Assembly (NCBI GenBank): GCA_029547805.1
Contig: JAKPOP010000003.1
Coordinates: forward strand, 372,001-436,000
DNA from: Deltaproteobacteria bacterium
Lineage (GTDB): Bacteria > Myxococcota_A > UBA9042 > DTJE01
Direction: 5' to 3'
DNA length: 64,000 nucleotides
The notes beneath the pieces are model-generated. The model saw only the letters and a program-made list of their open reading frames with translations. It did no database searches and was not told the origin of the DNA. The position numbers and the translations under genes are program-made. This document shows positions 21,279-44,133 of the stretch, piece after piece. Each line of letters opens with the position of its first letter. The stretch's first letter is position 1.

Positions 21279-21338
21279 CGACGCCTCCTTCGACTGATTC
21301 GATTATCAAGGAACCCAGTCGCTCTGTCATCGCCCTGG

Positions 21339-27066: not shown

Positions 27067-27174
27067 TCACCCCTTGACACACATCACCGCGAGGGTGAAC
27101 GCCTTCCGGCGAAGGGGCATCTGGGGATATCGCTGGATATCCGCCAGCATCCTGAGGGCGTCCACTGCCGTCAT
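27067..27174 (-). pseudogene. 5' remnant of the sigma-like gene (copy A)
   Basis: Reads MTAVDALRMLADIQRYPQMP then LRRKAFT, matching the N-terminus of the gene at 37911-39047 (one Met/Ile and one Arg/Trp change), then diverges and stops after 35 codons. The homologous block continues through the divergent promoter region into the cas2 remnant. The rest of the gene is absent from copy A. Confidence 0.8.
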
Positions 27175-27410
27175 GGGTCCCTTTTCTTCCAAGAGAAGTC
27201 AATCCTCACGGAAAAACGTGTTTGTCCCAACCAGCCGCCCTCGTCAACCGCATCCTTCCCATGAGTGATGCTCCAGGAACAGGCCCGGTACAGTCCTTTG
27301 AAGGGATGGGATCGCAGGAGGTGGCCATGCTGGTGCTGGTGACCGACGACATCACGGACCCCCAGCGACTGCGGCGAGTAGCCAAGGTCTTGGAGGGCTT
27401 CGGCCGCCGG
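27095..27410. repeat. Duplicated divergent sigma-like/cas2 region, copy A
   Basis: Nearly identical to 38947-39281. It covers the start of the sigma-like gene, the intergenic region and the first 28 codons of cas2. Copy B has a 21-bp insertion repeating the ATGACGGC start context. Confidence 0.85.
27327..27410 (+). pseudogene. cas2: Truncated cas2 (copy A)
   Basis: MLVLVTDDITDPQRLRRVAK followed by VLEGFGRR matches residues 1-28 of the intact cas2 at 39198, with Tyr7 of the TYDI signature changed to Asp. Homology ends abruptly at 27410 and the frame runs on into unrelated sequence, so no functional Cas2 can be made here. The ribosome binding site CAGGAGG is retained. Confidence 0.88.
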
Positions 27411-27445: not shown

Positions 27446-29491
27446 ATGGAATGGCAGGATGCCCTTGGGGCCGGGTCCGAAGTGGGCACCGATGCGCTGG
27501 TCCGGCTGGTGGCGGAGGGCCGACTGGAGGAGGCCCGGGCCCTGGTGCGATCCCGTGCCGACGGCACCTCCGAGGCCCGGCAGCACCAGGCCCTGGCCGA
27601 GGCGGCCGAGGCGGCCGGCAACGTCGCCCTGGCCATCACCGAGTACAACCTCTGTCTGCGTGAGGACCGGAACCAGCCACCGGTGCTGCTCCGACTGGCT
27701 CGGTTGCGGGCCGACATGGGGGACCTGGACCGGGCCATGCGGGCCTACCGCAAGTACCTGGAAGAGAGACCTGAGGACATGGCCGTGCGTCAGGAAGCGG
27801 CCGAGTGCGTCAGCGAGATGGGCCGACCGGACCTGGCCGTCGGTTTCCTGGTCCACGATGCCACCGGAGCGGCCTGCGAGGTCCCGAAGGCCTCCGCCAG
27901 CGTTGCCATCGGCGAGGTCCGTTCCCGGGCAGCCAGGCCTCCGGCAACCGATGACGACCCGTCCTTCCTGCCATCGGACAGCGACTGCGTGACCTTTGCC
28001 ACGATCTTCGCCGGGCGGGAGGGTGTCCATGCCCGACAATGGGCCAGCGCCACCGGACGCACCGGCTACAGCCCCGTTCGGGAGCCCTTCACCGCGGAGG
28101 TCGCCCGCCAGCACCTGCTGGGGACCTACACCGTCGGCATCTACCCGGTGCGCATGGACCAGACGGTCCTCTTCGCCGCGCTGGACTTCGACGTCAGCGC
28201 CGCTGGCAGGACTTCGCCCGACCCAGGGCGGGCCTTCGCCGATCGCATGCGCCGGGCCCATGAAGCGGCCCTTCGGGCGGTGGACGCGGCGGCATCGCTG
28301 GGCCTGTCGGTGCTGCTGGAGGACTCCGGTCACAAGGGGCGACATGTGTGGCTGCTGTTCGCCCAGCCGGTTCCTGCAGCCGCCGCTCGCCGGCTCATGG
28401 CCATCCTGATCGAGACCGCCGCCGTCCACGACCGGGAGGTGTCCATCGAGGCCTTCCCCAAGCAGTCCCGAGTCGCCCCGGGAGGGCTCGGCAACCTGAT
28501 CAAACTCCCCCTGGGGATTCACCGCCTGACCGGCCGGCGAGGCCTGTTGCTGGACCCTGCCACCGGCTTGCCCTTGACGCATCCCTTCGAGGCCCTGGAG
28601 GCCTGCCCCCGCATTCCCCGCAGCCGAGTCCAGCAGATCCTGGAGGCCCAGGATGACGGGGGCATGCCGGCCGGACCGCCGCCGACCCTTCGGGTCCTGG
28701 CCGGAGGCGATGAGGAATTTTCGGCGAAGGGTTGTGAGGCGGAGGCGGAAGACCGGGATCTTGCCGAGTCGGTTCCCGCTCCCAGAGTCCATTCCCCCCC
28801 GGACCCGCGCCCACCCCTCCCGGTGGCACCAACCCCGGCACCATTGCCCGAACGGGAGCCCTATGACCCCATGTCGGACGTCGAGGTGCTGGTGATCCTG
28901 GATCGCTGTCCCGTCCTGGCCGAGGTGGTCCGGCGCATCGGCCAGGGCGGCGTGCTGTCCACCGACGAGCGGGTGGTCCTGACCCACACATTCGGGCACC
29001 TGACACGGGGTCCGGAGGCCGTCAACCACTGGTTGTCCCGGGCTCTGAACCTCGACCCCTGTCTGCTGCTGAAGTCCCGCCTGCGAGGCCACCCGGTCAG
29101 TTGCGCGCGGATCCGCGCTCGCCTGCCCCTGGTCACCGCGGCGGTGGACTGCGCATGCACCTTCGACCCGGGTGCGGGCCTCTACCCCACCCCCCTGCTG
29201 CACCTGGGCAGTCTCCGGGCCACGGACCGGTACGGGGCAGACCCGATCCAGATGAGCCGCCTGGACGCCGATCGGATGGTGGCCGACCTGGTCCAGGCCC
29301 GCGCCCAGGCTGCCCGGGCACTTGAACTGGCGCGCCAGATCGAGGCGCACCTGAAGGCCATCCTGGAGGCGCAGCAGGTGGACCGTCTCCAGGTCACCCG
29401 GGGGACGGTGCGGCTGGTGGCCGATGGCCTGGTGCTGGACCTGTCCGATTCTCTTTCACCGGAGAAAGGCCCATGCCCGTCCTCTACGTGA
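27446..29491 (+). CDS. CRISPR-associated primase-polymerase (CAPP) with helical-repeat N-terminus
   Basis: 681 residues. The N-terminal ~140 residues are TPR-like helices. An archaeo-eukaryotic-type primase-polymerase domain follows (about 180-400) with motif I LDFDV (Asp247-x-Asp249), motif II SGHKGRH (294-300) and the IKLPLG block near 352-357. A C-terminal domain has four spaced cysteines (Cys488, 553, 569, 571) with HPVSC and YPTPLLH, suggesting an Fe-S module like that of primase large subunits. CAPP proteins are known to be operonic with cas1 and cas2 in type III systems and to synthesise DNA during adaptation. The gene overlaps cas1 by 19 nt. Confidence 0.88.
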   Translation: MEWQDALGAGSEVGTDALVRLVAEGRLEEARALVRSRADGTSEARQHQALAEAAEAAGNVALAITEYNLCLREDRNQPPVLLRLARLRADMGDLDRAMRAYRKYLEERPEDMAVRQEAAECVSEMGRPDLAVGFLVHDATGAACEVPKASASVAIGEVRSRAARPPATDDDPSFLPSDSDCVTFATIFAGREGVHARQWASATGRTGYSPVREPFTAEVARQHLLGTYTVGIYPVRMDQTVLFAALDFDVSAAGRTSPDPGRAFADRMRRAHEAALRAVDAAASLGLSVLLEDSGHKGRHVWLLFAQPVPAAAARRLMAILIETAAVHDREVSIEAFPKQSRVAPGGLGNLIKLPLGIHRLTGRRGLLLDPATGLPLTHPFEALEACPRIPRSRVQQILEAQDDGGMPAGPPPTLRVLAGGDEEFSAKGCEAEAEDRDLAESVPAPRVHSPPDPRPPLPVAPTPAPLPEREPYDPMSDVEVLVILDRCPVLAEVVRRIGQGGVLSTDERVVLTHTFGHLTRGPEAVNHWLSRALNLDPCLLLKSRLRGHPVSCARIRARLPLVTAAVDCACTFDPGAGLYPTPLLHLGSLRATDRYGADPIQMSRLDADRMVADLVQARAQAARALELARQIEAHLKAILEAQQVDRLQVTRGTVRLVADGLVLDLSDSLSPEKGPCPSST

Positions 29492-30585
29492 CCGAGCAGG
29501 GAGCCGAGGTGGGCGTGCGGGGGCCCCGGCTGGTGGTTCGCAAGGGGCGGACGGTCCTGGGGGATGTCCGACTGGAGGACTGCCCCCAGGTGGTGCTGAT
29601 GGGCAACGTCCAGGTATCCACCCAGGCCGTCCGGGCGATGCTGCTGGCCGGCGTCGAGGTCCTCTATCTGACCCTGGGGGGACGGTTCCTGGGCCGCCTC
29701 TCCGGCGGCCTGTCCGGCCACATTGCCCTGCGGCAGCGCCAGTTCCAGCAACTCGGGGACGCCGCGTTTGCCCGCGACCTGGCCTCGGTCGTGGTGGACG
29801 GCAAGATCCACAATCAACAGACCCTGTTGCGACGCCATCAGAAGGACATCCAGGACGAGCGGTTGGCCGCGGCCCTGACCCGCATGAGGGCCGCACGGGC
29901 GGCCCTGGAGGGTGCCGGGACGCTCGACCAGGTTCGGGGACTGGAGGGGATCGCGTCCCGAGAGTTCTTTGGGGCCTTCGGGCGACTGATCCGGGCCGAG
30001 GGCATCGAGTTCAGCCGGCGACTGCGCAGGCCGCCTCCCGACCCCGTCAACCTGTTGCTGTCGTTCGGCTACACCCTGCTGGCCGGGTCGATTCACGGCA
30101 TGGTCGAGCAGGCCGGCATGGACCCCTACCTCGGGGCTCTGCACGCCGCCGAGCGCGGCCGCCCGTCCCTGGTCCTGGACCTCATGGAGGAATTCCGACC
30201 GGTGCTGGTCGATGCCACCGTCCTGCGGGTGCTGAACACCCGGGCGATGAGTCGGAGGGACTTCATCTGGCTGGCCGAGGGAGAGGAGACCGAGGTAGAG
30301 GACGAGTGGGAGCGGGAGGAATGGGAGGCGCGGCAGGCGGGGGAGGACCTATTGGGCTCCGACGAGGATCCGGAACCTCCCGCCGGGCGGCGGCGCCTCC
30401 TGCTGACCCCCATGGGCAGTCGGAAGTGGGTGACCGCCTACGAGCGTCGATTGGCCGAGACGGTCGAGTATCCTCGGGCCGGTTGTCGGCTGACCTATCG
30501 CCAGGTCCTGCGGGAGCAGGTATACTGCCTGGCGAGGCATTTCCTGGGCCAGGAGCGGTACCAGTGCTTCCGTTACTCCTGGTGA
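29473..30585 (+). CDS. cas1: Cas1, type III-associated, with acidic insertion
   Basis: 370 residues. Spacer integrase. The catalytic Glu is in GLEGIASREFFGAFG (about 157-171), the His in ALHAAERGRPSLVLDLMEEF (about 219-238) with the following Glu. A highly acidic loop (about 272-310, GEETEVEDEWEREEWEARQ onward) is inserted before the C-terminal RKWVTAYERRL block and makes the protein about 35 residues longer than usual. The start at 29473 has GGAGAAAGG upstream and lies within the end of CAPP, so the two are translationally coupled. It is the only intact Cas1 for the 37-bp-repeat arrays. Confidence 0.95.
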   Translation: MPVLYVTEQGAEVGVRGPRLVVRKGRTVLGDVRLEDCPQVVLMGNVQVSTQAVRAMLLAGVEVLYLTLGGRFLGRLSGGLSGHIALRQRQFQQLGDAAFARDLASVVVDGKIHNQQTLLRRHQKDIQDERLAAALTRMRAARAALEGAGTLDQVRGLEGIASREFFGAFGRLIRAEGIEFSRRLRRPPPDPVNLLLSFGYTLLAGSIHGMVEQAGMDPYLGALHAAERGRPSLVLDLMEEFRPVLVDATVLRVLNTRAMSRRDFIWLAEGEETEVEDEWEREEWEARQAGEDLLGSDEDPEPPAGRRRLLLTPMGSRKWVTAYERRLAETVEYPRAGCRLTYRQVLREQVYCLARHFLGQERYQCFRYSW

Positions 30586-30850
30586 CTGGGGGGTCTTTGA
30601 CAACTGGATCGGTGACATCATGAACGAGCCGAAAAACCTCGCACCTCCCCAGTACCCCCCCGATCGGCGCCAACCCCTGGAAATTCCTACCAGTGGCCCG
30701 AAGGGGTCCGCGGTTTCCGATTACTCTGCAATTTCCGTGACTTGCGCCATTCCGGTCGGTCGTTGGTTGTCATGGGGGGGAGGGGGGTGGGGGGGTCCGT
30801 GGAAACGTGCTATGCTCCCCCTGTTGGGAAGCGGGGCCCCGATGGGTAGG
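30586..30850 (+). promoter_or_regulatory. Leader of array 2 with G-tract and extended -10
   Basis: 265 bp, nearly identical to the array 3 leader. It contains a run of G7-A-G6-T-G7 (30774-30795), able to form a G-quadruplex, followed by TGCTATGCT (30808-30816), an extended -10 placing transcription start about 25-30 bp before the first repeat at 30851. No usual -35 is present at 17 bp; the G-tract occupies that place. Confidence 0.7.
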
Positions 30851-32110
30851 GTCCGAAGAACCACCCCGATGAAGAGGGGATTGAGACATGACCTTTTCCT
30901 CCACCGAGGTGGAAGACTCGGTGTCCGAAGAACCACCCCGATGAAGAGGGGATTGAGACCAGGACTCGTTCATGATCACCTCGCCGGCGTCCGGGATCGT
31001 CCGAAGAACCACCCCGATGAAGAGGGGATTGAGACGTCTCGATTCCTAAAACGACGTTGTACATGCTCGGTGTCCGAAGAACCACCCCGATGAAGAGGGG
31101 ATTGAGACTGTGCACCATGCTCGTTAGCCCAGTGACGTCGGGCCGTCCGAAGAACCACCCCGATGAAGAGGGGATTGAGACGCTATCGCGAGGAGGATTT
31201 TCTGCGAAGCGGCCATGTGTCCGAAGAACCACCCCGATGAAGAGGGGATTGAGACGTAAGACCTCCAGTGGCGGCGGGGCAAGGCCCCAGGTCCGAAGAA
31301 CCACCCCGATGAAGAGGGGATTGAGACCCCCCAGGCCCGGAGATGCGCATCCCGGAGATTGCCGTCCGAAGAACCACCCCGATGAAGAGGGGATTGAGAC
31401 GGCACTTTGTCCTGCTCTTCCATCAGGGCTACGACGGTCCGAAGAACCACCCCGATGAAGAGGGGATTGAGACAGATCCAGGGTGCCTCCCCTGCTGTCA
31501 GTCAGGGGAGTCCGAAGAACCACCCCGATGAAGAGGGGATTGAGACTCCACAGAATACTCCCCCCCGACATCCACACGGATGTGTCCGAAGAACCACCCC
31601 GATGAAGAGGGGATTGAGACCATGGCAGCGGAGGTATCGGCGGTGCAGAAACACTGGTCCGAAGAACCACCCCGATGAAGAGGGGATTGAGACACTGGAG
31701 GTGGAGCATGTACTCTACGTCGCAGATGTGTCCGAAGAACCACCCCGATGAAGAGGGGATTGAGACTCCTCGGCGGCCTCACATGATACACATTCGTCCT
31801 TGTCCGAAGAACCACCCCGATGAAGAGGGGATTGAGACTGATCGCACCGACGACGGCCTCATAGCTGGACGCAGTCCGAAGAACCACCCCGATGAAGAGG
31901 GGATTGAGACCCTCCACCCGCAGCTGAGCGCAATCCCGACACGGGAGTCCGAAGAACCACCCCGATGAAGAGGGGATTGAGACAAGGAAGATTACGGCAG
32001 AAATCATAGCCAGAGAGAAGTCCGAAGAACCACCCCGATGAAGAGGGGATTGAGACAAGAAGGTCTTCGCGAACTCGTACGGCTGGTCCGGGTGTCCGAA
32101 GAACCACCCC
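30851..32110 (+). CRISPR. CRISPR array 2 (type III-type repeat), 17 repeats plus a truncated terminal repeat
   Basis: 37-bp repeat starting GTCCGAAGAACC and ending GGGGATTGAGAC, with CCCC/GGGG forming a short stem; 17 spacers of 35-39 bp. The final repeat (32094-32110) keeps only its first 17 bases, after which sequence runs into the RT promoter, so orientation is +, with the leader at 30586-30850. Repeats are identical to array 3. Spacer 31547-31583 is identical to one in array 3. Cas6 at 44167 is the likely processing enzyme. Confidence 0.98.
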
Positions 32111-32175: not shown

Positions 32176-34746
32176 GTGCCCCCGATCACCCTCGAGACCC
32201 TGGCCGACCGGAATCGCCTCCGACGGGCCTTCGACGAGGTACTGGCACGGCGAGGCATGGCAGGAACGGACCGAGTCACCGTGCAGGACTTCGCCGCGAA
32301 CCTCGAGGCCCACATCGCGCAACTGGCCAAGGAACTGGCCTCCGAGACCTACCGTTCCCTGCCGGTGCTGCGGGTCCTCATCCCCGAACAGGACAAGACC
32401 CGCCCTCTGGCGGTCCCGACGGTCCGGGACCGGGTCGTGCAGCGGGCACTCGCGGACCTGCTGCAACCTGTCCTGGAACCCTACCTGTCCCCGGCAGCCT
32501 TCGCCTTCCGCCCCGGAAAGGGAGCCCTCGCCGCCGTGAAGGCCGTCACGAACGCCCTGGAGGAAGGGCACCGTTTCGTGCTGAAGGCCGATATCCAGCG
32601 ATTCTTCGAGCACATCGATCACGGACTGCTGCTGACCTCCCTGGGGACACACGTCACGGACCCCCGCCTGCTTCGCCTGATCCTGGGCATCGTGCGGGCA
32701 CAGGTCCTCGACCACATGACCCTCCATGACTCCATGGTGGGTGTCCACCAGGGGTCTCCCCTCTCCCCGCTGCTGTCGAACCTCTACCTGCTGCCCTTCG
32801 ACCAGGCGGTCACGAATGCCGGTTTCCAGCTGATCCGCTACTGCGACGACTTCGTCGTGCCATGCTCCGAACCCCAGCAGGCCAGGCAATGCCTGGAACT
32901 CTGCCGCCGGTGCCTCGCGGACCTGCGGCTCGCGCTCCATCCGGTCAAGACGCGCCTGTGCACGCCGGAGGAGCCCTTCACCTTCCTGGGCTTCCAATTC
33001 CTGGAGAACCGGGCCGAACCAAGCCCCGACGCGATCGCCTTCCTTCAAAGTCGTCTGGGTGACGTGGCCGCCCGTGGAGGCCAGGCCTCTGAACTCGGAG
33101 AGGTCCTCCGGGGATGGCTCCAGTATTTCGGGACCGTCCCGGAGGCCGTGGTCAGGACCCCCGAAGGAAGACTGGCATGTCAGGGTGCCGGATTGCCCGT
33201 CCCCGTGGAGGCCGAGGCGGCTCCCACTTCCCCTGCGATCACGGATCCCATCGCCACAACTCCCCTCGATGTCACCGATCACCGCTCTGACCAGAAGGCG
33301 CCCCCGAACCCCCTGGGAACCCCTGTTGATTTGGGGCCGTCGGGTCCTTGCCTGCTGGCTCCCGACCACCAGGAGCGGTTTCTGTTCCTCTTTTCGGGCC
33401 GCGAGGACTGCCATGCCCGGGAAATCCTCGATTCCCGGGGACAGCGACGGTTCCAGGTCATCCCCCGCCCCCTGGCTGCGGAGGACCTCGTGGACCACCT
33501 GGCAGGGCGCTGCTGCCTGGGCATCCTGCCGCTGCGCACCAACGGCACGATCCGCATGCTGGTCTTCAACCTCAACGCTCGTCGGGTCCCGTTGGACGCG
33601 GACCCGTCGGAGTGGGAGGCCCGTATCCAGGCAACCCACCGCCATGCCATCGAGATCCGCCAGGCTGCGGCAACCCTGGGACTGGATGCGCTGGTCGAAG
33701 ACTCGGGCGCCAAGGGCCGCCACGTCTGGTTGTTCTTCCAGGAGGCCGTCCAGCCGGCCGTGGCCCGGAGGCTGGCAGCGGAGATCCTGCAGACCGTGAA
33801 GGCTGCCGACTGGGACGAGGTGATCCAGTGCTTCCCCGACCGGGACCGATGGCGACCGGGCTTGGAGGGGCCGATCCTGAAACTGCCTCTGGGCATCCAC
33901 GGTCGGACGGCCCGGCGGTGCTGGCTCCTGGATGACGAGGGTCGCCCGTTGCCTGACCCCGGCGAGGCCCTCCTGCGCGTTCAAGCCATTCCTCGAGAGC
34001 GCCTGATCCAGTGGATGGAGGACGGAGAGACCTCCCAGGCCGGCGACCCCGCACCGGAGGGATCCAGACCGGCCGACCGCCGGGAACCCCCGTGGTCTCT
34101 GAATGACGAGGCGCCCATGGCGGCGTTCCCCAATGTCTGCCGAGTCCTGGCAGGCTGTGCCGTCGTTCGCCATCTCTACCGGAAGGCCCGAGCGACCGGG
34201 TGGCTGTCCCATGGCGAGCGCCTGCTGATGCTCTATTCCCTGGGCCACCTGGGGTCCGAGTCCGAGGCGGCGATCCACCAGGTCATGTCCTTCACGATGA
34301 ACTACAACCGCAAGGTGACCCAGCGATGGTTCGAGTCCCGGAAGGATCACCCGATTTCCTGCATTCGGGTGCAGGAGAGTTTTTCGGGTCTCAGTGCCGG
34401 CGTGGTCTGTGACTGCCGGCTCCGGTCTCCCCGTGGTGGCTATCCATCCCCGGTGCTGCATGCCCTGGCGGCCAGCGAGGTCGATGCCTTTCGCCGGACC
34501 GCGGAGGAACAGGGACGCCAGCGCATGAAGGGCCATCCGGTGGAACGGGCCGAGGCAGAGAGGCTCCTGGGACGGCTGGCTGAACTACGGAGGCAGCAAC
34601 GGGGCATCGAGCAGGCCATTGCTGAGGTACACTCGCTGCTGGCGGCCTTGATGGATGCCACGGGCGGGGATCGCCTGGACCTGTCCAGCGGAACGCTGGT
34701 TCGGGAGCGACAGGAGGGCGGCTGGGCGTTCCGGATGGAGTTGTAG
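32176..34746 (+). CDS. Reverse transcriptase fused to a CAPP-like primase domain
   Basis: 856 residues. The RT domain (1-300) has motif A LKADIQRFF (Asp139), motif B HQGSPLSPLLSN (192-202) and motif C RYCDD (Asp224, Asp225), all consistent with an active group II intron-type RT. The second part (about 395-650) aligns with the CAPP at 27446 (FSGREDCHAREI, SGAKGRHVWLFF, LKLPLGIHGRT), but motif I reads VFNLNAR: Asn465-x-Asn467 instead of Asp-x-Asp. The C-terminal four-Cys module (HPISC, CDC, YPSPVLH) is kept. The GTG start at 32176 follows GGAGG at 4 bp; an ATG at 32137 has no ribosome binding site. Likely role: making or converting prespacers, possibly from RNA. Confidence 0.88.
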   Translation: MPPITLETLADRNRLRRAFDEVLARRGMAGTDRVTVQDFAANLEAHIAQLAKELASETYRSLPVLRVLIPEQDKTRPLAVPTVRDRVVQRALADLLQPVLEPYLSPAAFAFRPGKGALAAVKAVTNALEEGHRFVLKADIQRFFEHIDHGLLLTSLGTHVTDPRLLRLILGIVRAQVLDHMTLHDSMVGVHQGSPLSPLLSNLYLLPFDQAVTNAGFQLIRYCDDFVVPCSEPQQARQCLELCRRCLADLRLALHPVKTRLCTPEEPFTFLGFQFLENRAEPSPDAIAFLQSRLGDVAARGGQASELGEVLRGWLQYFGTVPEAVVRTPEGRLACQGAGLPVPVEAEAAPTSPAITDPIATTPLDVTDHRSDQKAPPNPLGTPVDLGPSGPCLLAPDHQERFLFLFSGREDCHAREILDSRGQRRFQVIPRPLAAEDLVDHLAGRCCLGILPLRTNGTIRMLVFNLNARRVPLDADPSEWEARIQATHRHAIEIRQAAATLGLDALVEDSGAKGRHVWLFFQEAVQPAVARRLAAEILQTVKAADWDEVIQCFPDRDRWRPGLEGPILKLPLGIHGRTARRCWLLDDEGRPLPDPGEALLRVQAIPRERLIQWMEDGETSQAGDPAPEGSRPADRREPPWSLNDEAPMAAFPNVCRVLAGCAVVRHLYRKARATGWLSHGERLLMLYSLGHLGSESEAAIHQVMSFTMNYNRKVTQRWFESRKDHPISCIRVQESFSGLSAGVVCDCRLRSPRGGYPSPVLHALAASEVDAFRRTAEEQGRQRMKGHPVERAEAERLLGRLAELRRQQRGIEQAIAEVHSLLAALMDATGGDRLDLSSGTLVRERQEGGWAFRMEL

Positions 34747-34782: not shown

Positions 34783-35032
34783 TACCTGACCACCCATGGC
34801 ACCGACCCCATATGGGTCTTCCGCCATTCCCGGAAGCACGGCCATCGGCGCTTCCTGATGGTAACCGATGGCATCGGGGACCTCATCGCCGAAGAGGAAC
34901 AGACCTTCCGAACTCGGCTGCTTCCCTCAACCTCTTGCGAATCGGCCTCTGGGATGCGGCCGTCCCGGTCCGAGCCCCAGGAGGCCCTCGCCCGCACGTC
35001 CTGGGACCTCACTTGAGACGGGGGGCCGGTTC
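34783..35032 (+). pseudogene. Decayed 3' end of the vWA gene (copy B)
   Basis: About 250 bp aligning with 26541-26800: matching stretches include CACCCATGGCACCGAC and CGGCGCTTCCTGATGGT, the region around the GAGGAACAG codons, and the tail after the stop (GGGGGCCGGT). Small deletions and substitutions break the frame. Only the final third of the vWA domain is represented and there is no start. It shows that copy B once had a vWA gene ending just before the convergent Lon-like gene. Confidence 0.8.
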
Positions 35033-35048
35033 CCGGAACACCGCCACC

Positions 35049-36848
35049 TCAGTAGGGGTAAAAACGCCAGACCATGTCTTCAAACGGGCGTCCCATCGCC
35101 TTGGCAAACGCCTCCAGGTTTCGCATGAGGCCCGGCGTAACTGCCCGTAATGCCTGGAGTTGCACCCTCACACCTCCTCTGTCTCCCTGCTCGATGGCGA
35201 GCCACAGGCCCAACAGAGCCCGATTGCAGGTCACGGACCCGTCCTGATCGTGCAGGCTTCCGGTCAGCCCATCGAACCGCTTCAACCCTTCCTCCGCCTC
35301 CCGCTTCCGTCCCGACTTCCACAGCCATGTCACGCGCCATCGCAAGGCCGACCATCCAATATGCGCAGGGACCCCACTCTCGGGGTCAAGGCCTTCCAGT
35401 AACTGGAAAGCCTCGTCATCCAAATCGCCCAGCAGCACCTTTCCGCTGGCGTAGGCCAGTGCCACGAAAGGGTTCTCCCGGATCAGGTCCCTGATGACTT
35501 GCTGCTCCAGGGTCCTGCGAAATCTGTCGGCACGTTTCCATTCACGGCGGTCTTCCAGGGCAGCCGCCAGATGGTACCAGAGGCACAGCGGATGCGCCGA
35601 CTGGTCGTCCAGGAACCGGCTTGTCCAGCCCGTTGCGGCCTCCCGAGCCAACGCGATCGCTTCCACGGGATCGCCTGCCACCGCTTCATACCGCGCCAGG
35701 GCGCCCAGTACCCGGAGGTGATCCGGATGGGCCTCGCGACCACGGACCAGGCAACGCCTGGTGACCCGCAAGACCTCGGCCCGATCGGCACAGCCCGTAT
35801 CAGCCGCCTGCTGGACCCAGTGGGCGATGTAGGCCAGCCTGACGGTGACGGGCACGGATCGAAGCATGTCCCCTCGGGGCACAGAGAGGAGGACATCCTC
35901 CCTGCCCAGATGACGAGACGCAATGGCCTGGGCGCACTGGAGTTTCCATCGCTGGGTCGCGGAGATCGAAGTCCAGACCTCCAGTGCCCGGCCGGCCATG
36001 TTCCTGACAGGTTCCCATGTCGAAAGGCCAAGGCTATCGTGCATCGCCAATCGAAACAGCCCATCCACGATGGCGCGACGTTCCCCAGGGCTGTTAAACC
36101 TGTTCTCGACCAGCCTCCAGATATCACTGCCAAAGACCAGGGCCAGGGCCTGGTCGAATCGATCCACCGGGATGACCTCCATCGACCCTTTCGATGCTTC
36201 CCGTGCCTCTTGGGCGTTGTCCGGAGCCACCAGAATGCGGCGCACCCTGGGTGCCATCTCCCGCAATGCGCGGACCTTGCGCCCAATCGCATCCACCGGC
36301 AGGACCTCCCCCATGGCATTCACCGCGGCGGAGGCTGCCAGGTCATCCGGCACACACACCCCCAACAGGTCGGATGTCAGGGCCAGTCCGAAGGACAGCC
36401 CGAATGAGCGCCCATCCAGCGCCACAGGGAAAGATGGACTCTCCGTTGCTCCCCCATCATGACGGGCCTCTATCTCCAAGGCCTGTCGATGCAGACTTCG
36501 ACGGTGGGACAGCGAGGTCCAGATGACCGGCAAGTGCCGTGGCAACGCTGCGAGGACATCCTTCCAGGCCTCCTGGGCCTGCTCGATGAAATGGCGCCCC
36601 TCATTGCCAAAAGGGTTCCGATCATCGACAGAGAAGACCCAAAGGGAGACGTCGCCCCTCCCAACCGCGATCAAGGCAACCAGGCCCGGTCGCTGGGGTG
36701 GGCCGTCCAGGCCGGATATCTGGCGGGCTCGATCCATCGCCTGAACATCCTCGGATCGAGGCCATGACCAGGGCGAACTCCGCAGGGCCAGCCGGGCCCT
36801 TTCCAGGTCATCAGGTTCCAGTTCGTCGTGCGTGAACCACCGTCGCAT
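35049..36848 (-). CDS. Lon-like (S16-type) protease domain with C-terminal helical repeats
   Basis: 599 residues. About 140-240 matches the proteolytic fold of Lon: ALDGRSFGLSFGLAL resembles the Lon catalytic block DGPSAG, placing the nucleophile at Ser148, and GEVLPVDAIGRKVRAL matches the GRVLPVGGLKEKLLAA block, giving catalytic Lys191; ILVAPDN follows as in Lon. No AAA+ domain is present. Residues about 300-599 are TPR-like helices, plausibly a sensor or substrate-binding part. The start at 36848 overlaps the upstream stop by ATGA; a longer start at 36893 is unsupported. It forms an operon with the next two genes on -. No SAVED or CARF domain is evident. Confidence 0.75.
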   Translation of the reverse strand: MRRWFTHDELEPDDLERARLALRSSPWSWPRSEDVQAMDRARQISGLDGPPQRPGLVALIAVGRGDVSLWVFSVDDRNPFGNEGRHFIEQAQEAWKDVLAALPRHLPVIWTSLSHRRSLHRQALEIEARHDGGATESPSFPVALDGRSFGLSFGLALTSDLLGVCVPDDLAASAAVNAMGEVLPVDAIGRKVRALREMAPRVRRILVAPDNAQEAREASKGSMEVIPVDRFDQALALVFGSDIWRLVENRFNSPGERRAIVDGLFRLAMHDSLGLSTWEPVRNMAGRALEVWTSISATQRWKLQCAQAIASRHLGREDVLLSVPRGDMLRSVPVTVRLAYIAHWVQQAADTGCADRAEVLRVTRRCLVRGREAHPDHLRVLGALARYEAVAGDPVEAIALAREAATGWTSRFLDDQSAHPLCLWYHLAAALEDRREWKRADRFRRTLEQQVIRDLIRENPFVALAYASGKVLLGDLDDEAFQLLEGLDPESGVPAHIGWSALRWRVTWLWKSGRKREAEEGLKRFDGLTGSLHDQDGSVTCNRALLGLWLAIEQGDRGGVRVQLQALRAVTPGLMRNLEAFAKAMGRPFEDMVWRFYPY

Positions 36849-37897
36849 CAGAACTCCCAGACGTCTCCGACATGGGAATCCCGGGCCCACCATGCACCGG
36901 GGTCCAGACTGGCCACCTCCCGAAGGCGTGTGACCTCGGTTGTGATTCGGCGCGGCAGACCAACCCGGAAGTTGTCCCCCTGCTCGTCCAGCGATCGCAG
37001 TTCCGCATCGAGTCGTGGACTCCCGCCGCGCAAATCGACCAGAACCCGAAGGGCCTCCAGGTCATCCCGTGACTCGCACCAGGCGATCCAGCGACGAATC
37101 CAGGCCGGTTCCTCAGGGTCCAGTGTCTCTTCCACTTCGTGGAGCAGGTCCCGGAGGCGTCGCACTTCCTCCAGCGCCAGCGACTCAATGCGCCGCACCT
37201 CCTCCATCGACTGGCTCTGAATCCAGTCATCGATGAAATCACTGAGAACCGTGGCATCTTGGGCCATGGCCCGCTCGATGGCGATCCGCACCTCGTCTGC
37301 AGTCGTGCACAGGCAACGGAATCGTCTGAACACCGCAAGGGCCATGACCTGTGACAGCGCATCCATGCCATCCAGGTGACGGAGGACGGCTGAACGCAAC
37401 CACTCTGGGGACTTTTCGTCCAGGCGCGCCCTCAGGACCTCCAGCACCTGCTCGAAGCGGTCCTGCCGATCGCCCGCTTCCGTTGCCAGGCAACGATGAA
37501 AATCCCCACGGGCGTCCCGGAGGATCGCAAGCACCGTTTCTTCATCCAGGCGAATGGAGAACGCCGATTCCGGGGCCAGCGAAGCCTTCAAGAGACCAGA
37601 ACGGTTGACATCAAACCGTACTCCCCCGATGGTCCCCCTCACCTCGAAAGCCCGCATGGTCTCATCGAAGGACAGTCGCACGAGGCCATCTGCAGGGCGA
37701 TATTCCTCCGTCAACCCGCACCGCAACGGCGTGACCACCATCCATGCGTCCACGGGCTGCTGCATCACCATTTTCCCGTGGTGAATCACGTCCGCCGTGG
37801 CTCGCACCGGGTGCCAACGCAAGGGCGCCCCTGCCGGCAGGCCCAGCGCATCCCTCTCCCTTGGCTCAAGTCTGATCCCTTCCGTTTCGTCGATCAT
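36848..37897 (-). CDS. Unknown protein between Lon-like and sigma-like genes
   Basis: 349 residues, not recognised. The N-terminal ~130 residues look beta-rich (WHPVRATADVIHHGKMVMQQ; DAWMVVTPLRCGL), and the C-terminal ~200 are helical and acidic (SMEEVRRIESLALEEVRRLR; LHEVEETLDPEEPAW). No signal peptide or membrane helix. GGGGGAGG precedes the ATG at 37897. It is coupled to the Lon-like gene by ATGA and follows the sigma-like gene by 13 bp, so it could be the protease substrate or an inhibitor of the sigma-like protein; this is inference from position only. Confidence 0.65.
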   Translation of the reverse strand: MIDETEGIRLEPRERDALGLPAGAPLRWHPVRATADVIHHGKMVMQQPVDAWMVVTPLRCGLTEEYRPADGLVRLSFDETMRAFEVRGTIGGVRFDVNRSGLLKASLAPESAFSIRLDEETVLAILRDARGDFHRCLATEAGDRQDRFEQVLEVLRARLDEKSPEWLRSAVLRHLDGMDALSQVMALAVFRRFRCLCTTADEVRIAIERAMAQDATVLSDFIDDWIQSQSMEEVRRIESLALEEVRRLRDLLHEVEETLDPEEPAWIRRWIAWCESRDDLEALRVLVDLRGGSPRLDAELRSLDEQGDNFRVGLPRRITTEVTRLREVASLDPGAWWARDSHVGDVWEF

Positions 37898-37910
37898 CGT
37901 GCCTCCCCCA

Positions 37911-39047
37911 CTAGGAAACGGAGGTCTTCGCCGGATCTGAGCGCTCACCATCGATCCGGGGTGACCGCTGATAGACGCGAAGGTCCTCGATCCACTTCCG
38001 AGCGGTCAGCAGCCCCTTGAGCGTGGGACCTCCTGGCCGGGGACCCGCCTGCCTCACAGCGGCCTCAAGTTGCTTCCGGGATTCCTCGAGCCTTTTCAGG
38101 AAATCGCAGACCCGGCGGTACAGACGATTTCTCATCTTCGTGAAATCCTGGTCCTCCCGTGTCCTTCCTTCGTGAGCAAGTTCCTCTTCTGCCCGCTTCG
38201 TCACGGTGGTCCGGTCCAGGCGAATGTCCACCAGGAGTCGGTAGGTCGCCACGAACAGTTCCATGCGATCGGGCTGGATGACGTCATCCATGCAATTCCG
38301 CAGCACACAACCATAGGCCTTGACACTCTGGATCAGTGTTTCCCATCCTGCCTGGGGGCCACCGTCTGGCAAGTCCCAGTATTTCGGTTCAGTCAGAAGT
38401 TCCATGAGGGGTGCCACGCGGGGTTCCAGGTGTTCCTGCATTGCCCTGAAGACCTCCCCCCCGAACCCTCCTTGGCCCGCCCTGGCCCATGTCTCCATAT
38501 CGCCAAAGCGTCGCCGTTCCTCTTCCATCAGGGTGACCAACCTCTGTTTCGCTCTTTCCAGGTCCTGTTGTAGCCGCGATAGAACATGTGAGAGGCGTCC
38601 GTCTTGACCCAAGAACTCCTCAGGAATGCCAGCCCCCTTCGCCTGGAGGCCACCATGCGCCTCATCGGCCTGATTGGAACGCGCGTGGACCTCGAGGGCA
38701 CTCTTCGAGTCGTCTGGCAATGGCACATGCCGGAGTGATCTTTGATGGTCTTTGATTCTGTTTCGGATGGCCGTCATCAGGTAGGCGATCGCGTGATCAT
38801 CGGTCACCAGCTCCTGACAAAGATCGAACCCATTGTCAAGCCAGAACATCAGAGAAATATGGAGGCATTCCACCTCCTCAGGAACCTGTGCTGTGATATT
38901 CGCGCCATCGTAGTGGAGGCGCTTGCAGACGGCCTGGAAAAGGACAGTGAACGCCTTCCAGCGAAGAGGCATCTGGGGATATCGCTGGATATCCGCCAGA
39001 ATCCTGAGGGCATCCACTGCCGTCATGGAACCGTTTCCGGCCGTCAT
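37911..39047 (-). CDS. Sigma-factor-like protein (region 2-like N-terminus)
   Basis: 378 residues. Residues about 15-105 resemble sigma70 region 2: WKAFTVLFQAVCKRLH, an acidic helix, then AIAYLMTAIRNRIKDHQRS, very close to the AWLxxxxRNRxxDHLR pattern of ECF-type factors. The middle is a long Arg/Glu coiled coil (QQDLERAKQRLVTLMEEERR). A Lys/Arg-rich helical segment (KMRNRLYRRVCDFLKRLEES) near the end could be a region 4-like DNA-binding part, but this is weak. It is first gene of the operon with the unknown and Lon-like genes and divergent from cas2. Two in-frame ATGs (39047 and 39026) come from a 21-bp insertion; either could be used. Confidence 0.55.
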   Translation of the reverse strand: MTAGNGSMTAVDALRILADIQRYPQMPLRWKAFTVLFQAVCKRLHYDGANITAQVPEEVECLHISLMFWLDNGFDLCQELVTDDHAIAYLMTAIRNRIKDHQRSLRHVPLPDDSKSALEVHARSNQADEAHGGLQAKGAGIPEEFLGQDGRLSHVLSRLQQDLERAKQRLVTLMEEERRRFGDMETWARAGQGGFGGEVFRAMQEHLEPRVAPLMELLTEPKYWDLPDGGPQAGWETLIQSVKAYGCVLRNCMDDVIQPDRMELFVATYRLLVDIRLDRTTVTKRAEEELAHEGRTREDQDFTKMRNRLYRRVCDFLKRLEESRKQLEAAVRQAGPRPGGPTLKGLLTARKWIEDLRVYQRSPRIDGERSDPAKTSVS

Positions 39048-39281
39048 GGGTCCTTTTCCATCCAAGAAAAGTCAATCCTCAAGGGGGCAGAGTCTGTCCC
39101 AACCGGCCGCCCTTGTCAACGCATCCCTTCCATGAGTTATGCTCAATGGACAGGCCCGGTGCAGTCTTTTGGAAGGATGGGATCGCAGGAGGTGGCCATG
39201 CTGGTGCTGGTGACCTACGACATCACGGACCCCCAACGACTGCGGCGGGTGGCCAAGGTCTCGGAGGGCTTCGGCCGCCGG
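38947..39281. repeat. Duplicated divergent sigma-like/cas2 region, copy B
   Basis: The intact counterpart of 27095-27410. The candidate cas2 -10 here is TATGCT (39138-39143), with TTGTCA at 39113-39118 (long 19-bp spacer); in copy A the same -10 reads GATGCT, consistent with decay there. Confidence 0.8.
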
Positions 39282-39473
39282 GTCCAGAAGAGCGTCTTCG
39301 AGTGCGAGATGGACGAAAAGGGGATCGTGCAGTTGCGTCGGGCCCTGGAGGACGTGATGGACCCTCAGGTGGACTCGGTCCGCTTCTATCGCCTCTGTGG
39401 TCGTTGTCGCGGGTCCGTGGAGGTGATGGGGATCGGCACCCTTCCCCGGGAGGATGACCTGGTCGTGTTGTAG
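39198..39473 (+). CDS. cas2: Cas2, type III-associated (the intact copy)
   Basis: 91 residues. MLVLVTYDITDPQRLRRVAK is the Cas2 N-terminal block with the conserved TYD; VQKSVFECEMDEK is the second strand. AGGAGG precedes the ATG. It is the partner expected for the Cas1 at 29473, since the copy next to that cas1 is truncated. Immediately downstream the CAPP and cas1 genes of this copy are reduced to a fusion remnant. Confidence 0.95.
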   Translation: MLVLVTYDITDPQRLRRVAKVSEGFGRRVQKSVFECEMDEKGIVQLRRALEDVMDPQVDSVRFYRLCGRCRGSVEVMGIGTLPREDDLVVL

Positions 39474-39518
39474 GGGCCTCCTCATGTCCCGGCAGCCGGA
39501 CCATCACCCACTCCTGGC

Positions 39519-39850
39519 TGGCCCGGGCCCAGGCTGCCCGGGCTCTTGAACTGGCGCGCCAGATCGAGGCGCACCTGAAGGCCATCCTGGAGGCGCGGCA
39601 GGCGGGGGAGGACCCATTGGGCTCCGACGAGGATCCGGAACCTCCCGCCGGGCGGCGGCGCCTCCTGATGACCCCCATGGGCAGTCGGAAGTGGGTGACG
39701 GCCTACGAGCGTCGGTTGGCCGAGACGGTCGAGTATCCTCGGGCCGGTTGTCGGCTGACCTATCGCCAGGTCCTGCGGGAGCAGGTATACTGCCTCGCGA
39801 GGCATTTCCTGGGCCAGGAGCGGTACCAGTGCTTCCGTTGCTCCTGGTGA
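39519..39850 (+). pseudogene. CAPP'-cas1' deletion remnant (copy B)
   Basis: 39519-39602 matches a segment near the CAPP 3' end (29293-29377), and from about 39590 the sequence matches the cas1 3' end (30324-30585). The join lies in a shared GGAGGCGC(A/G)GCAGG, so about 1 kb was lost by recombination at a 14-bp near-identity. The cas1 part keeps about 87 codons, including RKWVTAYERRL, but lacks every catalytic residue. Confidence 0.88.
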
Positions 39851-40116
39851 CTGGGGGGTCTTTGACAACTGGATCGGTGACATCATGAACGAGCCGAAAA
39901 ACCTCGCACCTCCCCAGCACCCCCCCGATCGGCGCCAACCCCTGGAAATTCCTACCAGTGACCCGAGGGGGTCCGCGGTTTCCGATTACTCTGCAATTTC
40001 CGTGACTTGCGCCACTCCGGCCGGTCGCTGGTTGTCATGGGGGGGAGGGGGGTGGGGGGGTCCGTGGAAACGTGCTATGCTCCCCCTGTTGGGAAGCGGG
40101 GCCCCGATGGGTAGGG
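39851..40116 (+). promoter_or_regulatory. Leader of array 3 with G-tract and extended -10
   Basis: Almost identical to 30586-30850. G7-A-G6-T-G7 at 40039-40060 and TGCTATGCT at 40073-40081, 36 bp before the first repeat. The strict conservation of both elements between copies whose upstream coding parts have decayed suggests that both leaders are still used. Confidence 0.7.
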
Positions 40117-41702
40117 GTCCGAAGAACCACCCCGATGAAGAGGGGATTGAGACCAACCAGCACCACAAAGGGTGCTAGTACCTGCGGCATGTCCGAAGAA
40201 CCACCCCGATGAAGAGGGGATTGAGACTTTTTGACCGTGTCCCTGGCCAACACCACTCCCAGGGGTCCGAAGAACCACCCCGATGAAGAGGGGATTGAGA
40301 CAGTCTCATGGCCCCCTTCTTGGTCGCCGCCCCGCAGATGTCCGAAGAACCACCCCGATGAAGAGGGGATTGAGACTTCCAGGATCCTTTTCGCCTCCAG
40401 GGGCACTCCGTCTCGTCCGAAGAACCACCCCGATGAAGAGGGGATTGAGACTCTCTTTTTGTCATTTGTTCTCCTCCACAATAGCGTAGTCCGAAGAACC
40501 ACCCCGATGAAGAGGGGATTGAGACTTCACCGCCCACAAGACGTAGACCACTCGAAGAACCGGGTCCGAAGAACCACCCCGATGAAGAGGGGATTGAGAC
40601 AGAACCTCCGGCAGCTCCCGCCCTGTATGCTCAATCCGTCCGAAGAACCACCCCGATGAAGAGGGGATTGAGACCTCCTCCTGGAGGCTCCTGACCAACT
40701 CTTCTTTCAAGTCCGAAGAACCACCCCGATGAAGAGGGGATTGAGACAGCATGCAACCAATAATTAATAGCCCACCTCCCGGCGTGTCCGAAGAACCACC
40801 CCGATGAAGAGGGGATTGAGACCAAGAACTTCGGGCAGCTCCTGCCCCGTGTGCTCAAGTCCGAAGAACCACCCCGATGAAGAGGGGATTGAGACCTCAG
40901 AGGGGAAGACGACGTACAGGATATCCCGGACGTCCGAAGAACCACCCCGATGAAGAGGGGATTGAGACAAGCCCTTCCAGTAGTCCGACTCTCCACCTGA
41001 CCGGGTCCGAAGAACCACCCCGATGAAGAGGGGATTGAGACGCCCAACTCGCTCTGCTTCATGACCAAGCCTTTCATGTCCGAAGAACCACCCCGATGAA
41101 GAGGGGATTGAGACTTCACGAACAAATCTAATGATCAAATCAAGATCGCGGTCCGAAGAACCACCCCGATGAAGAGGGGATTGAGACTCCTCATTGTGGG
41201 AGACCTGGAGGGCCTCCCACAATGTCCGAAGAACCACCCCGATGAAGAGGGGATTGAGACATGAGGGACGGGAAGTAGAACACCATCTTGACCTCCTTGG
41301 TCCGAAGAACCACCCCGATGAAGAGGGGATTGAGACTCCACAGAATACTCCCCCCCGACATCCACACGGATGTGTCCGAAGAACCACCCCGATGAAGAGG
41401 GGATTGAGACAGTATAAACGAGCCAGCACCGTTCGTGCTGGCTGTCCGAAGAACCACCCCGATGAAGAGGGGATTGAGACCAGGGGAGGCAGTGATGCAT
41501 GCAGCCAGTAATTAATAGGTCCGAAGAACCACCCCGATGAAGAGGGGATTGAGACGGAACATGAAGTTCACCTCGTCTTGTGGGTTGCTCGTGTCCGAAG
41601 AACCACCCCGATGAAGAGGGGATTGAAGACTCCACGGCGAGGGTGCTCTCTCCGCCGTTGCCGTTGGCCAGAGAGCCCCCCCGAGGAAGAGAGACTCAAG
41701 AG
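40117..41702 (+). CRISPR. CRISPR array 3 (type III-type repeat), 21 repeats plus a degenerate relic
   Basis: Same 37-bp repeat as array 2; 20 spacers of 33-39 bp between 40117 and 41630. The 21st repeat (41593-41630) has a 1-bp insertion near its 3' end. A further spacer-sized gap is followed by a relic (41666-41702) matching the repeat at 25 of 37 positions. Orientation + from the leader and decayed 3' end. Notable spacers: 41337 shared with array 2; 40601/40823 and 40748/41481 homologous pairs; 41188 and 41411 perfect inverted repeats. Confidence 0.98.
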
Positions 41703-41866: not shown

Positions 41867-42544
41867 ATGTCCAAGCGCTATCAGATTCTGGAAATCCTGC
41901 AATTTTCATGGTCTCGTCAGAAAGGCGTCATCACAGCCCCGATTGCCGCGGCCGCTGTCCTGCTGGTCGCCGCCTGCTTGTCAGGCAGCATTGACAAAGC
42001 CAATCTGTGGTCGGTCATCGAGCCGGTCCTGAGTCTTGTCACGCTGGCCGTCGCGGTCGTGATCTGGTGGGGAGAACAGCAGGAGGCATGGGAACGCAGC
42101 CTCCCCAAACGACTGACGGTCTCCTTTGTCGTCAACGAGGGCGGCCGCAGTATCGAGGTGATGCGGTGCGAGAAGGCCTACCTCGCCGGCGAGGCCGATA
42201 TTCGAGCCTGGGGACAGCAACTGGGCTCGCAGATGGCCATGGATCAACTCCAGTTCTTTCCGAACTACCAGCAGGAATCCCTGCCCCCGAAGCGTGACGA
42301 GGATGGCCGTTTCTACAAGGACTATCGTCTGACCATCCAATTGCGAGAGTTCCCAACAAATATCGCCCGATCGGGAAGCCCTCCCTACGTTCATTGGACA
42401 GCCCCGGAATTCTCGGACTCGAGGAACCATCCCGCGAAGCCCAAGGCGACGTCCAATGGCGGCCCGGAGACTCCCCTCAACCCGCCATCCACCGCACCCA
42501 GTGAAATCGCCGGTCCCGCTGGTCCCCATCAGATCAGAGAATAA
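41867..42544 (+). CDS. Two-helix membrane protein, candidate type III accessory protein
   Basis: 225 residues, family not recognised. Two hydrophobic helices near the N-terminus (VITAPIAAAAVLLVAACL, about 26-43; SVIEPVLSLVTLAVAVVIWW, about 54-73) are followed by a soluble domain of about 95 residues (KRLTVSFVVNEGGRSIEVMR ... YRLTIQLREFP) and a Pro/Ser-rich tail. AAGGAG precedes the ATG. It lies between array 3 and the convergent CARF-HEPN gene, overlapping it by 16 bp. Small membrane proteins with a soluble domain are common accessories of type III loci, so a membrane effector role is plausible but unproven. Confidence 0.65.
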   Translation: MSKRYQILEILQFSWSRQKGVITAPIAAAAVLLVAACLSGSIDKANLWSVIEPVLSLVTLAVAVVIWWGEQQEAWERSLPKRLTVSFVVNEGGRSIEVMRCEKAYLAGEADIRAWGQQLGSQMAMDQLQFFPNYQQESLPPKRDEDGRFYKDYRLTIQLREFPTNIARSGSPPYVHWTAPEFSDSRNHPAKPKATSNGGPETPLNPPSTAPSEIAGPAGPHQIRE

Positions 42545-44133
42545 CTTCGGAAACGCACAAAACGAAAACGCACCGTCTTCACCCCGCCCTCCCCTGTCAC
42601 CACGTCCCGCCGGGAGGTGGCCGCCAGACACTGGATGCCCCTGCGGTTCAGCCCGTGAACCAAGAACCACGTCAGCGTGAACTCCCCCTGGACCATCGCA
42701 TGGCTGGTCCCTTCCGGGACTTTTTCCAACAGGTCCTCGGCCATCTTCTTCACGTCATCCTCAGATGCGTCGGGAGGCACCTCGGGAAACGCAAAGTCCA
42801 CAATCCGTGGGGCCAACGCCAGTGCTGCCTCCCGCTGGGTGTCCTCCCACCTCTCCGAGGCGTGATTGCTGAGATTCAGAAACACGGGCGTCCCCTGCGC
42901 CTCGGCCCCCCTGGTCTGGCCGACGCTCCGGCGCAGCACATCCACCTCACGGGACACCACCCCAATCAGCGTTCTCGCCGGGGCCGGGGATGGGTTCATG
43001 CCCCCGTGGTCAATGTCGTTGCGCATGTCGGAGATGCGCCGGAAGGTGTCTCGGTCCATCCGTGCACATGCAAACTCGGCCAGGTTCCGTGCCTGCCTGG
43101 AATGGCCAGGACCGGGCGTGGCCGCTTCGGGAGACGCGTAGCGGGTCACCCATGCCTCCCGCACCGTGGTGGCCGCCTCGGAGTACCGTTGCATGTCCAG
43201 GTACAGCCCCGCCAGCGAGGCCAGGGCTTCCTCCCCACGGCGATCCCGCAACGAGGTCACGCCGGTCAGCGGCTCCAGGAAGTCGCGGATCCGCTGCACG
43301 ACATCAGCCAGCGGAGGGAGGTGCCTGCGGACATCCGGCTCGGCGTCCTGCAAGGCGCGCACCAGGGCATCGACCGATGAGGATTCGCCCTGGCGGCCCA
43401 GCAACAGGGCCCCGGTGCGGATGGTGGCCAGGTCCTCCCCGAAGGCCTTCAGGGCCGCGGCCAGCCGATCCAGTTGTGGTTGCGGCCCCTGCATGCCTCC
43501 GCGGGCCCATGCCTTGCGCAAGGCCCGACCGAGCCGTTTGGTCGGGTCCACCACGTCCTCAACCCTCCCGGTCTTCAGGAAGAGGGCCAGCGCCTGGGCC
43601 CAGTCCACCAGTTCGGTGAAGGGCGTCAAGTCCCAGATGGCCGTCGGCTTCTCCGGCACCAGGTTCCCGGCGTAGTACACCCGGACCTCTGGCCGTTCTG
43701 GGTCCACGGCCCGGACAAAGGACAGTGCCGCCGCGGCAAAGAACGGCTGGGACCGGAACCCGTTCGTGATGTCCAGCACCAGGCTCCTCCCCGAAGGCAC
43801 CCGAAAGGCGTCCCGAAGCGTGGCGAACTGGTCCCAGAGTTGTTCCTGAGTTTCCCCGTAGGGAATCGGACGATGGGTGGGCCGAACCCCGGTGATGGCC
43901 GCCACCTCTTGACTCAGGGCACCCCCGTGCATCGCCCAGGCCTCGTCGGTGCTGACGATGCACACCTCCTGCGGCGGCGTCTCCTCCTTCGTCAACATCT
44001 GGCAGACGGCAGCCGTGGCATAGCGGGACATGTACCGGTCCTCGGCACCGTCGCCCCAGGCATAGGTGGTCTGCTGATAGTTGGCCTTCCCCAGAAACGA
44101 CACGAGCCGGATTCCCTCGACCTCCTCTTCCAT
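42529..44133 (-). CDS. CARF-HEPN ribonuclease (TM1812/Csx2-Csx1-like) with extra C-terminal CRISPR-associated domain
   Basis: 534 residues. The CARF domain (1-170) has VSFLGKANYQQTTY and LDITNGFRSQPF, the TM1812-family signatures for cyclic oligoadenylate binding. The HEPN domain (about 300-400) carries RNDIDH, R371-x4-H376, the ribonuclease motif. A third domain (about 416-534) begins FLNLSNHASERW and continues MVQGEFTLTWFLVHGLNRRG; similar small proteins occur alone in type III loci and belong, as far as I can recall, with the Csx15/16/20-type proteins proposed as ring nucleases. It is the last gene of the cmr operon, 33 bp after cas6. Likely activated by Cas10 signalling and possibly self-limiting. 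Confidence 0.82.
   Translation of the reverse strand: MEEEVEGIRLVSFLGKANYQQTTYAWGDGAEDRYMSRYATAAVCQMLTKEETPPQEVCIVSTDEAWAMHGGALSQEVAAITGVRPTHRPIPYGETQEQLWDQFATLRDAFRVPSGRSLVLDITNGFRSQPFFAAAALSFVRAVDPERPEVRVYYAGNLVPEKPTAIWDLTPFTELVDWAQALALFLKTGRVEDVVDPTKRLGRALRKAWARGGMQGPQPQLDRLAAALKAFGEDLATIRTGALLLGRQGESSSVDALVRALQDAEPDVRRHLPPLADVVQRIRDFLEPLTGVTSLRDRRGEEALASLAGLYLDMQRYSEAATTVREAWVTRYASPEAATPGPGHSRQARNLAEFACARMDRDTFRRISDMRNDIDHGGMNPSPAPARTLIGVVSREVDVLRRSVGQTRGAEAQGTPVFLNLSNHASERWEDTQREAALALAPRIVDFAFPEVPPDASEDDVKKMAEDLLEKVPEGTSHAMVQGEFTLTWFLVHGLNRRGIQCLAATSRRDVVTGEGGVKTVRFRFVRFRSYSLI

Follow-up and report, generated by a model that had tools for sequence, protein, structure and literature searches.

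We show, at the level of sequence, that the fusion protein RT-CAPP of a Deltaproteobacteria bacterium keeps the catalytic acids of its reverse transcriptase (RT) domain and has lost those of its PrimPol domain, that a separate TPR-CAPP encoded in the same locus has its acids intact, and that this arrangement is conserved in a sister species. The analysis covered a stretch of 64,000 nucleotides of contig JAKPOP010000003.1 (the window). In the explanation we favor, RT-CAPP is probably a pseudo-primase that docks a live RT to CAPP, Cas1, and Cas2, forming a subunit of a type III-like adaptation complex.

Domain architecture and catalytic residues of RT-CAPP

The RT-CAPP gene (P0001; 32176..34746, plus strand) encodes 856 amino acids from a GTG start, which is consistent with the homolog in G011 (L033), the nearest relative. 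A group II-like RT domain (residues 6-332; 32191..33171, plus strand; RVT_1, 1.5e-33) is followed on the same chain by a PrimPol (AEP) domain (residues 395-610; 33358..34005, plus strand; AEP-TOTE, 2.9e-24), for which the fold prediction resembles the MsCAPP PrimPol, and by a PriCT-like CAPP C-terminal domain (CTD; 34096..34743, plus strand) with four cysteines (C661, C729, C745, and C747) that are common to nearly all CAPPs. This order of domains is that of the CART-CAPP architecture, as are the intact catalytic residues of the RT, namely Asp139 of motif A (GAT, in VLKADIQRFF; 32590..32592, plus strand) and the YCDD of motif C (residues 222-225; 32839..32850, plus strand), in which Asp224 and Asp225 are encoded by GAC GAC. 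The initial annotation had described the RT motifs as complete and the remainder as a CAPP-like half that aligns well with the neighboring CAPP, and both descriptions are borne out; the alignment of the PrimPol part with the TPR-CAPP of the window extends over 542 amino acids (31% identity, E 4e-49) and includes SGAKGRH and the four cysteines.

The PrimPol site itself is altered. Motif I reads N465-L466-N467 (AAC CTC AAC; 33568..33576, plus strand) in place of D-x-D, as had been noticed at the outset, and motif III has Gln551 (CAG; 33826..33828, plus strand) in place of the conserved Glu (VIQCF, compared with VSIEAF or DVEIF), while motif II is kept (SGAKGRH, residues 510-516; 33703..33723, plus strand). 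Measured against the AEP superfamily, the protein thus has the sxH of motif II and lacks both hhhDhD/E of motif I (VFNLN) and hD/E of motif III (I-Q551). In an alignment to Marinitoga CAPP PDB chains, N465 and N467 fall on the columns of MpCAPP D177 and D179, and an HMM built from non-RT CAPPs alone gives an identical register; misalignment of motif I was ruled out, as three independent alignments agree. A model of the PrimPol domain and CTD reached a pLDDT of 82.5 (20-sequence alignment), and its PrimPol part has the PrimPol fold, superposing on MsCAPP PrimPol structures (7nqd) with a target-normalized TM score of 0.91 and 2.2 Å. On this predicted fold, which still stands, the metal site is neutralized by three near-isosteric changes (D-to-N, D-to-N, and E-to-Q).

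We conclude that the PrimPol domain has very probably lost its catalytic activity, because all three metal-binding acids are replaced, N-x-N is kept in the nearest relative, D177A/D179A abolishes MpCAPP activity (PMC8211822), and published work on RT-CAPPs has used D-to-N pairs to inactivate their RT domains (PMC10415136). The initial annotation had reached the same view from motif I, overlooking Q551, with which all three carboxylates have become amides. The NF040561 model (CAPP type A1) nonetheless matches P0001 with 212.8 bits, above its curated cut-off of 200, and automatic annotation would therefore mislabel the protein as an active primase-polymerase; family models give an active-primase label to a site that is probably dead.

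Organization of the locus

Upstream of RT-CAPP, the window encodes a TPR-CAPP (27446..29491, plus strand) with an intact PrimPol site (D247-x-D249, SGHKGRH, and E335), a candidate live primase partner, and Cas1 (29473..30585, plus strand; 4.5e-81). CRISPR array 1 comes next (30851..32056, plus strand; 37-nt repeat, 16 spacers), and RT-CAPP starts about 120 bp past its last full repeat, shortly after the trailer end. A complete Cas2 (39177..39473, plus strand) lies upstream of array 2, which has the same 37-nt repeat and 20 spacers (40117..41629, plus strand). As in CART-CAPP loci, cas1, cas2, and CRISPR arrays are thus nearby, and the order is shared with G011 (L033 and L034), in which Cas2, TPR-CAPP, Cas1, and an array lie on one contig and an array and RT-CAPP on another. 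The sole type III component identified within the window is a CARF-HEPN-Csx20 type protein (42529..44133, minus strand), a type III signaling effector. It had been proposed that the active CAPP nearby would supply DNA synthesis; its catalytic residues agree with this, but the RT domain of RT-CAPPs can itself prime and polymerize (PMC10415136), and DNA synthesis thus need not depend on this CAPP alone.

The adaptation region of the window is partly duplicated (26544-27410 and 29296-30850 against 34785-35030 and 38947-40115). The first copy has complete TPR-CAPP and Cas1 and just a 5' fragment of Cas2 (about 27306-27410), and the second has a complete Cas2 with TPR-CAPP and Cas1 as remnants; the 3' end of a vWA gene is likewise duplicated. 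Three minus-strand genes lie between the arrays (35049-39065); one of them has a Lon-like protease domain and matches CARF/SAVED-Lon weakly, and the other two have no convincing family match. One identical 37-nt spacer occurs in both arrays (31547 and 41337), and array 2 contains pairs of similar, non-identical spacers (40601/40823 and 40748/41481), which could stem from targets that are related or from one site sampled more than once. At 16135-19060 and 19542-21302, the window has a further, type I-G-like array together with a dedicated Cas4g/Cas1g fusion (749 bits).

Conservation and selection

The RT-CAPP of the congeneric genome G011 (L033/L053) is 62% identical to that of the window and has N-L-N at motif I with the same codons, AAC-CTC-AAC, which rules out a local mutation or sequencing error; N-L-N is therefore not a local accident. 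Its motif III retains the Glu, unlike Q551 of the window. Identity between the two proteins is 68% for the RT domain, 57% for the PrimPol domain, and 67% for the CTD, compared with 74% and 67% for the PrimPol domain and CTD of the TPR-CAPPs and 78% for Cas1. The corresponding dN/dS values (Nei-Gojobori), which are rough because dS is near 1, are 0.24 for the RT domain, about 0.38 for the PrimPol domain, 0.23 for the CTD, and 0.26 for the PrimPol domain of TPR-CAPP. The PrimPol domain of RT-CAPP is relaxed yet still under purifying selection: with 0.38 against 0.26, the predicted dead domain evolves faster than its live counterpart but remains constrained.

Active sites among RT-CAPP relatives

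Searches of about 1,950 genomes yielded 14 RT-CAPPs in which both sites could be read, and a profile scan of genome contigs gave 19 loci; further class- and order-level searches returned no additional RT-CAPPs, and a plasmid search returned helicase-fused AEPs only. Nine of the 14 (group A) keep YxDD in the RT and have lost motif I of the PrimPol domain, which reads NLN in the window and G011, ETR in G108, RVV in G077 and G198, EVR in G265, RLL in G290, EVS in G029, and EVE in G384. Motif II, SG(A/S)KGRH, is complete in the window and G011 and lost in most other motif-lost RT-CAPPs. Four others (group B: G180, G143, G038, and the planctomycete G790) have the D-x-D, sxH, and E of the PrimPol site and YxDN in the RT, one (group C, the planctomycete G819) has both sites intact, and none of the 14 has lost both. 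YxDN was found in all four group B RTs and in 0 of 34 other RTs compared, and D-x-D is kept in 36 of 37 non-RT CAPPs examined. RT-CAPPs with an intact PrimPol site were noted at L042, L049, L077, and L080, and four of the five such proteins have YxDN for YxDD; an RT with YxDN may not be dead.

Asn-x-Asn itself is thus kept in G011 and is replaced by other residues in the remaining motif-lost relatives. Homologs with D-x-D, which the initial annotation had named as grounds for regarding Asn-x-Asn as a local mutation, do exist (five of the 14), but they are distant and four of them have YxDN, so the objection applies in letter only. Taken from the sequences, the pattern suggests that, of the two DNA-making sites of an RT-PrimPol fusion, usually only one is kept complete. 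Fisher tests on this reciprocal pattern gave small values, but the sequences are related: group B forms one side of a branch (support 89/86), and a one-clade origin of group A was not rejected (p-AU 0.667 for the PrimPol domain and 0.207 for the concatenation). The nine motif-lost cases may therefore represent few independent events, and the whole pattern as few as two old ones. In another locus (L085, 6607-8721), a CAPP-like PrimPol with SVR at motif I and an altered motif II is fused to Cas1 and is an apparent pseudo-primase.

A separate D-x-D CAPP was found in six group A genomes; it shares the locus in G000 (the genome of the window), G265, and G384, and in G011, G108, and G029 it lies at another place in the assembly. 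In all six, RT-CAPP lies outside the CAPP-cas1 pair. The PrimPol region of the G265 TPR-CAPP contains an in-frame TAA (L038, about 6314-6316), either an error of the MAG or a broken partner, so the state of this partner is unsure. In the RVV/RLL clade (G077, G198, G290, and G062, in which the RT lies off the contig), RT-CAPP occupies the usual place of TPR-CAPP beside cas1 or cas2, and no live CAPP partner was found at these four loci; in G198, a second CAPP lies next to a different Cas1. A strict rule of pairing with a live CAPP is thus unsupported, and, given these four motif-lost RT-CAPPs, a live partner is not required in general. There seem to be two uses of RT-CAPP, a paired form, as in the window, and a replacement form of the kind put forward by Zabrady et al.

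Proposed role of RT-CAPP and alternatives

Our preferred reading is of a complex of two CAPPs, Cas1, and Cas2 in which the RT half of RT-CAPP would be the live polymerase and the pseudo-primase half would keep its fold, motif II pocket, and CTD. With N, N, and Q in place of the D, D, and E that coordinate the two metal ions, the PrimPol half would not catalyze. MpCAPP molecules associate with one another by CTD-CTD and TPR-deltaCTD contacts, and the part of MpCAPP bound by Cas1 is TPR+AEP (PMC8211822). By analogy with these yeast two-hybrid and pull-down data, on which the docking roles rest, the CTD of RT-CAPP would bind TPR-CAPP and its PrimPol half would bind Cas1 and nucleic acid, bringing the RT to the integrase. 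RT-CAPP would then copy RNA or single-stranded DNA, TPR-CAPP would prime or fill DNA strands, and Cas1-Cas2 would integrate them, with one live site per polypeptide. We infer all of the contacts and the division of labor in this paired hetero-complex by such analogy. The selection acting on the domain and the CTD is compatible with the initial suggestion that the PrimPol half may bind nucleic acid or dimerize CAPP.

The main alternative, which we regard as distinctly less probable, is simple redundancy, in which an RT able to both prime and extend has left the PrimPol half functionless and decaying, with no present role. This was suggested in the Discussion of PMC10415136, and it would account for the faster divergence of the PrimPol domain relative to the RT and CTD and for the many ways in which motif I has been lost in relatives (RVV, RLL, EVR, ETR, EVS, and EVE). 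A decaying domain is, however, difficult to reconcile with a dN/dS of about 0.38, the lack of any frameshift, the retention of motif II and 57% identity, an intact predicted fold, and a CTD constrained as much as the RT; N, N, and Q are also the most conservative replacements possible, unlike random decay. The PrimPol half could instead act in cis, as a sensor of nucleotides or 5' triphosphate ends or as a clamp for its own RT, with no link to TPR-CAPP. The completeness of motif II in the window and G011, set against its loss in most other motif-lost RT-CAPPs, speaks for such a role, but members of this superfamily bind nucleotides largely by way of the metals that the lost acids hold, and we consider such a role improbable. 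Some polymerases tolerate an Asn beside the catalytic Asp, as in the GDN of negative-strand RNA virus polymerases, and with motif II and the surrounding pocket retained, the N-x-N/Q site might still work with an altered metal requirement, such as Mn2+ only. This is the least credible of the alternatives, as all three carboxylates are gone rather than one, almost all AEPs have the acids of motif I and a change of DID to LIL kills PolpTN2 (PMC5862659), and D-to-N pairs inactivate the RT domain in RT-CAPPs (PMC10415136).

Inverted repeats in spacers

Perfect inverted repeats with a second arm that finishes precisely at the 3' (leader-distal) end of the spacer are present in the RT-CAPP arrays (positions 30888, 31474, 31547, 40228, 41188, 41337, and 41411 of the window, and 5329 and 5768 of L034). 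With arms of at least 6, such repeats occur in 9 of 54 spacers (8 distinct) against 0.4 expected, a count reached by 0 of 2000 dinucleotide shuffles, whereas only 1 of 54 is anchored at the 5' end and none of these spacers has inverted repeats placed 1-8 nt from its end. Other CAPP and type I-G arrays have 3 of 226 against 2.1 expected, and the type I-G array of the window has none with arms of at least 7. Reverse complements of spacer ends were found in the same spacer in 17% of cases, compared with 0.34% in other spacers. The pattern was spotted by eye before testing, and G011 serves as an independent replicate; the window alone (35 distinct spacers) has 6 such spacers against 0.28 expected, and G011 alone has 2 with arms of at least 7 against 0.034 expected. 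It is absent from the 41 spacers of G384 and is therefore not general to paired loci.

The origin of these repeats looks like snap-back DNA synthesis or the capture of RNA 3' stem-loop ends. Snap-back synthesis by RT-Cas1/Cas2 is known in vitro (PMC11014452), and in the literature searched, which covered few subscription papers, it is described for a CRISPR RT in vitro only. A tentative extension of our reading is that RT-CAPPs follow a rule of one live site, keeping either the RT with a pseudo-primase or the primase with YxDN, and that in this genus the live RT, held by the pseudo-primase on a live TPR-CAPP and Cas1, makes snap-back prespacers that are recorded as leader-distal-anchored inverted-repeat spacers. 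Phage searches for protospacers gave nothing convincing; three viral contigs matched exact 20-mers of the hairpin spacers, but the similarity ends after 20 nt and is compatible with chance.

Comparison with known systems and implications

The window protein resembles the CART-CAPP (CAPP-RT) type of CAPP_A known from Caloramator australicus (CCJ33120) and Geobacillus lituanicus (Zabrady 2021, 2023), with the same RT-PrimPol-CTD order near cas1 and CRISPR arrays. In these two Firmicutes RT-CAPPs, CaCART-CAPP and GlCART-CAPP, the PrimPol halves are inactive and the RT halves are active as primase and polymerase (PMC10415136). That RT-CAPPs can have inactive PrimPol halves is thus already known from biochemistry, and the core idea is not new; the same inactivity is predicted here from N465, N467, and Q551. 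Unlike the published cases, compared here by their description in the literature, the window has a visible sequence cause (N, N, and Q) and an intact TPR-CAPP in its locus. The available parts of Zabrady 2021 and 2023 contain no account of sequence-level motif loss, paired loci, or a YxDN counterpart, and a sequence cause, a paired locus, or a reciprocal RT/PrimPol pattern was likewise not found in the literature searched, with its few subscription papers. The reciprocal pattern among the 14 RT-CAPPs, together with the shared separate D-x-D TPR-CAPP, appears to be new.

P0001 shares the PrimPol fold, motif II, and four-Cys CTD with the TPR-CAPPs (MpCAPP/MsCAPP, NF040561), but has none of the three acids of MpCAPP (D177, D179, and the motif III Glu), which in turn has no RT. 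RT-Cas1 and Cas6-RT-Cas1 of Marinomonas mediterranea also place a group II-like RT with a live YxDD in CRISPR adaptation, but their fusion partner is Cas1 and they have no PrimPol. DNA polymerase epsilon is like RT-CAPP in that it retains an additional polymerase module that is inactivated and serves structurally, although fold and pathway are unrelated. UG10/DRT RTs with a fused primase have an RT and an AE primase on one chain (PMC8934634), as RT-CAPP does, but are not CRISPR adaptation genes, and membership of P0001 in this group found no support, as UG10 is absent from its 25 best PADLOC matches.

Why RT-CAPPs retain an inactive primase half was a puzzle that remained in 2023, and these results give it a cause that can be read from the sequence. 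Where loci are paired, the RT activity is expected from one polypeptide and the PrimPol activity from the other, and the reciprocal pattern, if true in more genomes, would point to selection for one polymerase site per polypeptide. The end-anchored hairpin spacers would be natural evidence of RT/primase activity shaping spacers.
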